A DNA stretch of 34,665 bases from Candidatus Gastranaerophilales bacterium. Its GTDB lineage: Bacteria > Cyanobacteriota > Vampirovibrionia > Gastranaerophilales > Gastranaerophilaceae. This document shows positions 14,868 to 15,149 of the stretch, one piece after another. The notes beneath the pieces are model-generated. The model did not search any database, was not told the origin of the DNA, and saw only the letters and a program-made list of their open reading frames with translations. Position 1 is the first letter of the stretch, and every line of letters starts with the position of its first letter. The DNA is taken from contig CALVBV010000012.1 of assembly GCA_944325815.1 (NCBI GenBank), positions 1 through 34,665 on the forward strand, written 5' to 3'. Both the position numbers and the translations under genes were made by a program.

Positions 14868-14896
14868 TTGAAAGAAAAGAGGCTTTATGTTATACT
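14868..14896 (+). promoter_or_regulatory. Strong promoter for tRNA-Ala and the downstream UvrA-like gene
   Basis: TTGAAA (14868-14873), a 17-base spacer and TATACT (14891-14896), each one mismatch from consensus. Predicted +1 is near 14903, which is 174 bases before the intact tRNA but only 48 before the truncated tRNA copy at 14951. Confidence 0.6.
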
Positions 14897-14923
14897 TTGA
14901 ATTGCGAATGCAGGCGCAGATAT

Positions 14924-14968
14924 TGAAAATTAACAATTAAATATCACTAAGGGGCGTTAGCGCAGTTG
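14924..14968 (+). repeat. 45-nt direct repeat, upstream copy, containing the first 18 nt of the tRNA-Ala gene
   Basis: Differs by one base from 15050-15094. It contains tRNA positions 1-18 (14951-14968) and 27 bases of leader, then diverges. It is a broken tRNA start with no tRNA body. Confidence 0.85.
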
Positions 14969-15049
14969 ACTCTGCCGAGGAAAAGGTGACTAAATGTCAC
15001 GTTTTCCGAGAGGTAGCCAAGGCGAAGGCCTTGCGCGCTACGCAACTGC
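14969..15049. repeat. 81-nt insert between the tRNA-Ala repeats
   Basis: The segment contains the 29-nt hairpin at 14979-15007, a small AAGGC/GCCTT hairpin near 15019-15032, and a right end (15035-15049) that is an inverted near-copy of the tRNA D-arm at 15088-15101. No coding capacity. It looks like a small non-autonomous insertion or a rearrangement product. Confidence 0.55.
14979..15007. repeat. 29-nt hairpin repeat, copy 2
   Basis: Outer arms GGAAAA/TTTTCC and inner arms GTGAC/GTCAC with loop TAAAT and one G/G mismatch. The core is the reverse complement of the hairpin at 437-465, and the outermost pairs covary with it. Confidence 0.75.
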
Positions 15050-15094
15050 TGAAAATTAACAATTGAATATCACTAAGGGGCGTTAGCGCAGTTG
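15050..15094 (+). repeat. 45-nt direct repeat, downstream copy
   Basis: The copy joined to the intact tRNA-Ala gene; 44 of 45 bases match 14924-14968. Confidence 0.85.
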
Positions 15095-15149
15095 GTAGCG
15101 CACGACACTGGCAGTGTCGGGGTCAGGGGTTCGAATCCCCTACGCTCCA
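15077..15149 (+). tRNA. tRNA-Ala (anticodon GGC)
   Basis: A complete 73-nt cloverleaf. The acceptor GGGGCGT pairs with ACGCTCC (one G-U), with discriminator A. The D-arm is GCGC/GCGC. The anticodon stem CGACA/TGTCG holds the loop CTGGCAG, giving anticodon GGC (Ala, codons GCC/GCU). The variable loop is five bases. The T-arm is AGGGG TTCGAAT CCCCT. The 3' CCA is not encoded. The first 18 bases are repeated 126 bases upstream. The UvrA-like gene begins 20 bases after it. Confidence 0.97.

Follow-up and report, generated by a model that had tools for sequence, protein, structure and literature searches.

The nearest described kind to the element analysed here is formed by the repetitive hairpin-forming elements (RHEs) and GC clusters of mitochondrial genomes. 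These are small dispersed hairpins that carry no enzyme of their own and are suspected to be mobile; they occur as nested or tandem insertions and are distributed patchily between close relatives (PMC2800124, PMC4478555). In sponge RHEs, the stems are conserved and the loops are variable (PMC2800124). The hairpin module E1, located upstream of a tRNA-Ala(GGC) gene in a 34,665-nt stretch of DNA from a Candidatus Gastranaerophilales bacterium (‘the window’), is likewise a small dispersed hairpin that lacks an enzyme of its own, is suspected to be mobile, forms nested or tandem insertions and is patchy between close relatives. Unlike the sponge RHEs, E1 has constant loops and ends, a constancy partly imposed by our search, and a stem that varies with compensation. 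Unlike RHEs and GC clusters generally, it favours tRNA arms and is accompanied by copies of tRNA ends.

E1 also resembles the bacterial REP elements with RAYT (Y1) transposases in being a dispersed palindrome, and it is even found inside REP-like palindromes; it differs from them in having no link to a Y1 gene, in targeting tRNA genes and in the accompanying duplication of tRNA ends. Downstream of the Escherichia coli tyrT gene lie repeats that each contain the 3′ end of the tRNA, and E1 units are similarly arranged in tandem, each with a fragment of the adjacent tRNA. The tyrT repeats, however, are confined to a single locus and to the 3′ end of its tRNA, whereas E1 units involve the 5′ or 3′ ends of many tRNAs, share modules and include inverted copies of the D-arm. 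For integrase-borne elements, tRNA genes are the usual targets and the interrupted gene is rebuilt. E1 units share this target and the rebuilding of the gene, but they contain no integrase, are tiny and mostly involve the 5′ end.

The tRNA-Ala(GGC) locus

The features of the locus are listed in Table 1. An earlier note, made from the sequence of the window, had described a 45-nt direct repeat with one mismatch that holds leader and the first 18 nt of tRNA-Ala(GGC). This repeat is present as the core of a longer one of 54 nt and 91% identity (14915–14968 and 15041–15094). The upstream tRNA copy is broken in the D-arm as described there, ending in the D-loop after tRNA nt 18, and the intact gene, identified by both ARAGORN and Rfam, follows an 81-nt insert (14969–15049) that separates it from the candidate promoter. 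In an Rfam covariance search of the locus, tRNA is the only known RNA family to reach its gathering score. The near-consensus promoter stands as a sequence, with 10 of 12 consensus matches and an extended TG; as a promoter it is plausible but unproven, given that ∼0.9 such matches are expected by chance in the region.

Table 1. Coordinates of features at the tRNA-Ala(GGC) locus of the window
Feature	Position	Strand	Remarks
Candidate sigma-70 promoter, TTGAAA-17-TATACT, extended TG	14868..14896	+	∼180 nt 5′ of the tRNA
Leader copy 1, AT-rich, with TTGAAAATTNAATA-like motif	14923..14950	+	
‘L’, truncated first copy of the tRNA-Ala 5′ end (nt 1–18)	14951..14968	+	
Hairpin module E1: ACTCTGCCGA, covarying stem with TGAC-TAAAT-GTCA tip, GAGAGG	14969..15013	+	Covariance model R1, E 8.5e-13
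tRNA-like continuation (TAGCC) and second small hairpin P3 (AAGGC-GAA-GGCCTT)	15014..15034	+	
Anti-D-arm segment GCGCTACGCAACTGC	15035..15049	+	Reverse complement of tRNA nt 12–25, one extra base
Leader copy 2, AT-rich	15050..15076	+	
tRNA-Ala(GGC), intact	15077..15149	+	ARAGORN; Rfam 66.8 bits

The right end of the insert, which the earlier note had recognized as an inverted near-copy of the D-arm, corresponds to the D-arm sequence GCAGTTGGTAGCGC in reverse complement, with its additional base exactly at the tRNA break point. The insert is a mosaic of E1 (45 nt), TAGCC, P3 and the anti-D-arm segment. Judged from its composition, it is a dispersed hairpin module combined with tRNA-derived sequence and not one fixed 81-nt element. 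The inserted unit (81–126 nt) has no coding capacity and contains no integrase gene.

Several congeneric genomes also have an E1 unit in the same arrangement before tRNA-Ala(GGC); at one of these loci (L005), the downstream UvrA-like gene matches as well (88% identity). This recurrence in congeners indicates that the arrangement is neither chance nor an assembly error. A near-identical tRNA-Ala(GGC) was not found in near-complete congeners of genus g1 that include G005 and G020, and its absence from several such genomes suggests that this isoacceptor is dispensable.

A second hairpin is present in the window on the minus strand (436–466), adjoining a truncated HipA-like gene at its 3′ end. It has the TGACTAAATGTCA tip seen in E1 within other flanks (AAGGACTCCG...GCGAGCAG-hairpin-CGTTGCG), a flank type that is also seen with tRNA 3′-end duplications (G000 C76 and G019 C14).

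Distribution and structure of E1

The E1 hairpin recurs throughout the genus of the window. Of 241 genomes of the order Gastranaerophilales, 216 contain matches to a covariance model built from 69 distinct E1 copies (R1). Almost all of these genomes belong to a single family, and among the weaker matches are related hairpins that are not canonical E1. An exact-pattern scan of named species genomes yielded at least 112 E1 stretches on MAG contigs labelled Gastranaerophilales, Melainabacteria, cyanobacterium or plain ‘bacterium’; the Muribaculaceae label of one E1-bearing contig (L058) is probably a binning error. Further copies of the insert, which the earlier note had considered, therefore exist in part: its first 45 nt recur at many sites in the order, and the segment is not unique to this locus. 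The genome that contains the window has E1-type units before tRNA-Ala(GGC), two before tRNA-Leu(TAG) and three before tRNA-Met(CAT); their hairpin tips are of three kinds. The counts derive from searches; the compared genomes include MAGs, many arrays lie at contig ends, and all unit numbers are minima.

No E1 was found in viral contigs by the exact-pattern scan or in phages by BLAST, and the BLAST comparison with plasmids gave a single match that is weak and partial. These results bear on the idea that the units are remnants of ordinary integrase-borne elements for which the tRNA served as an attachment site. Such an origin would explain tRNA targeting and gene rebuilding, but it accords poorly with the absence of matches in viral contigs or phages, with the single weak partial plasmid match and with units of ∼90–137 nt that are non-coding and lie mostly at the tRNA 5′ end. 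We consider it highly improbable.

The E1 consensus consists of ACTCTGCCGA, a stem closed by TGAC-TAAAT-GTCA and a terminal GAGAGG. The search pattern contributes to the conservation observed in the loops and ends, but it does not constrain the stem, where 136 cells are changed on both sides compared with 46 in shuffled and at most 29 in slid controls. Mismatches in the stem are strongly strand-biased (G.A 60 versus C.T 1, G.G 43 versus C.C 0 and G.U 11 versus A.C 3; the counts are not independent of one another), indicating that the strand as written is the one that folds, as either RNA or single-stranded DNA. Compensatory changes on both sides are likewise seen in the P3 stem when the tRNA-Ala locus is compared among congeners, and at this tRNA the E1 tip has been swapped wholesale from the TAAAT type to CCGAACCGTTGAGG.

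The mismatch bias is informative about a purely mutational origin, in which tRNA genes, being prone to form hairpins, would undergo slipped and fold-back copying that generates partial duplications with inverted segments and corrects the hairpins towards perfect palindromes. Fold-back correction can mimic covariation, and the existence of a microhomology junction, fold-back copies and tandem units is in keeping with such a process. An excess of G.A and G.G mismatches on one strand is not expected from a strand-neutral process, however. The occurrence of one module with conserved ends and loops at different tRNAs and palindromes across the family also speaks against a mutational origin, which we regard as unlikely.

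Units at tRNA genes and intergenic palindromes

E1 is preferentially located next to tRNA genes. Among 135 copies on named MAG contigs, 83 have a tRNA within 450 nt downstream, where a rough estimate from tRNA density predicts ∼1%. E1 lies on the 5′ side of the tRNA in the same sense in 72 cases and on the 3′ side in antisense in 11; the remaining copies are either interrupted by the end of a contig or locus (25) or lack a downstream tRNA (27). This outward orientation is expected if only those events that rebuild the tRNA survive, and selection on tRNA function is its presumed cause.

Most tRNA-adjacent units include a terminal piece of the tRNA beside them, and some also contain an inverted D-arm copy. 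In 5′-side units, the tRNA is broken after nt 7–8, 11–12, 17–20 or 26 and the sequence resumes in the D-loop (GGTAGC...) with the loss of 2–12 nt. In 3′-side units, the duplicated part is the 3′ end of the tRNA together with its terminator. The simplest array, in the near-complete genome G102, has identical E1 in each of four 90-nt units preceding tRNA-Lys(CTT); a four-base microhomology, TTGA, joins the units. We also observed nine tRNA genes in G000 (C34, C61, C105, C87, C77, C92, C38, C69 and C91) where the contig ends 0–13 nt 3′ of the gene, as if a repeat started there and broke the assembly.

Filled and empty sites can be compared directly between syntenic tRNA genes of G000 and the near-complete G164, which belong to one genus and differ in both directions. 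Lys(CTT) and Gly(TCC) are filled in G000 only; at Val(TAC), both genomes have an older partial duplication, to which G000 alone adds a further unit; Leu(TAA) is filled, in decayed form, in G164 only. For tRNA-Ala itself, the bare gene of G021, outside the syntenic comparison, is a candidate empty allele. Away from tRNAs, E1 replaces the tips of intergenic palindromes and the flanks are otherwise kept. Unfilled tips (GTTA, GAA, AAAGC or CAAGC) coexist with E1-filled copies of the palindromes, with one such pair located within a single locus (L114). The non-tRNA copies have no long duplication, which indicates that insertion of E1 does not in itself generate one.

The proposal of the earlier note, that insertion of a small element into the tRNA produced a long duplication, with the gene restored, is supported by these comparisons, and we infer that E1 itself moves. 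The proposal needs refinement in that the inserted sequence is a mosaic, the plan of the locus predates E1 and units occur at both the 5′ and the 3′ ends of tRNA genes.

Proposed hairpin cassettes and a possible leader RNA

With moderate confidence, we favour an explanation in which the locus is one unit of a lineage-specific family of non-coding hairpin cassettes that invade tRNA arms and survive where the displaced end is rebuilt. A folded single-strand module, in this case E1, would enter the loop of a stem-loop; between genes, this would be a palindrome tip, and within a tRNA gene, either the D-arm or the T-arm. In tRNA genes, only events that recopy the displaced terminus and the leader behind the module would persist; the rebuilt gene would keep using its original promoter, with a longer leader in the transcript, and the units could later grow or shrink as tandem repeats. 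The route probably involves folded single-stranded DNA or RNA and template switching by a polymerase, which would fit the microhomology junctions, the loss of 2–12 nt and the inverted D-arm copy.

Two types of enzyme were considered as mobilizers. The Y1 (RAYT) transposase is present in 26 of 78 family genomes and absent from the E1-rich genomes G102, G153 and G189, and a significant E1 match lies near only 3 of 30 Y1 genes. No reverse transcriptase is found in the E1-rich genomes G103, G109, G175, G150, G085 and G097. That neither enzyme is linked to E1 argues against the cassette reading, as do the lack of a long duplication at non-tRNA copies and the combination of conserved loops and variable stems, the latter being expected of a functional RNA.

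The same plan is found with other modules in the genome of the window, at Val(TAC), Gly(TCC), Lys(CTT), Pro(CGG) and Pro(GGG), and additionally at a leucine tRNA (C5), an aspartate-type tRNA (C15) and a further proline array (C7), the last three being cut by contig ends and identified from their sequence. In these other-module units, an anti-D-arm segment of 11–17 nt, usually positioned 25–35 nt before the tRNA, is followed by a leader that contains a TTGAAAATTNAATA-like motif. In a set of 237 tRNAs, anti-D-arm segments are centred on tRNA nt 12–22. The modules before the C5, C7 and C15 tRNAs (L334–L337) have in common GCCGAA-type and GATA-type motifs that immediately precede the anti-D-arm segment.

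The leader motif is enriched in front of unit-bearing tRNAs, and we suspect that it is an rRNA-type boxA signal. Its recurrence with different modules and tRNAs gives it the appearance of a functional element instead of a passive flank, a further point against the cassette reading. A copy of the motif, TTGAAAACTTAATA, also lies away from any tRNA, between apparent rpsJ and rplC genes (G000:C42:14983-14996). In two other families, f6 and f7 (G026 and G035), tRNA-Ala(GGC) has the shared plan with unrelated modules; the other sampled genomes outside the family of the window have a bare tRNA-Ala. The occupation of this site by other modules in f6 and f7 implies that the architecture is older than E1 and has been gained or lost repeatedly.

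These features raise the main alternative, a cis-regulatory leader RNA. The anti-D-arm segment would be contested by the decoy start L and the genuine tRNA start, and the module would decide the pairing and thereby whether the tRNA folds or is held misfolded. The size, target and frequent spacing of the segments, which recur at Val, Gly, Asp, Leu, Pro, Lys and Ala tRNAs, are consistent with this scheme, as are the plan at tRNA-Ala in f6 and f7 and the covariation of stems on the transcribed strand. Pairing of the segment with the real D-arm also gives a predicted fold ∼7 kcal/mol better than unit and tRNA folded apart (−88.6 versus −47.1 and −34.6). On the other hand, units are missing at syntenic tRNA genes of a congener, the 3′-side units lie in antisense past the terminator, where a leader RNA cannot act, and E1 also occupies palindromes away from tRNAs. 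Many E1 units have no clear anti-D-arm segment, and pairing of E1 flanks with the D-arm is not universal: 10 of 59 5′-side units lie at or above the 95th percentile of swapped pairs. As a general explanation, the leader RNA is disfavoured and appears doubtful, although cassette and leader RNA may both be partly true. We give a minor but real chance to a tentative proposal that the units represent a new class of tRNA-embedded functional RNA, composed of a structured module with the decoy 5′ half of a tRNA on one side and an anti-D-arm guide on the other, that switches tRNA folding or guides its own insertion into matching tRNA genes.

Under the favoured cassette explanation, the locus belongs to a large and apparently undescribed family in Gastranaerophilales, an uncultured group of gut bacteria; our search of the open-access literature found no reports of tRNA-end repeats or such arrays in this order. 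Transfer RNA genes are among the most constrained genes, and here ∼10 or more in one genome have partial copies, inverted arms and folded modules lying between the promoter and the tRNA; congeners differ in which tRNAs are affected. The cassettes may explain why MAGs of Gastranaerophilales break at tRNA genes. The units provide a testable case of either hairpin mobility in bacteria without a known enzyme or an unknown form of control of tRNA synthesis.
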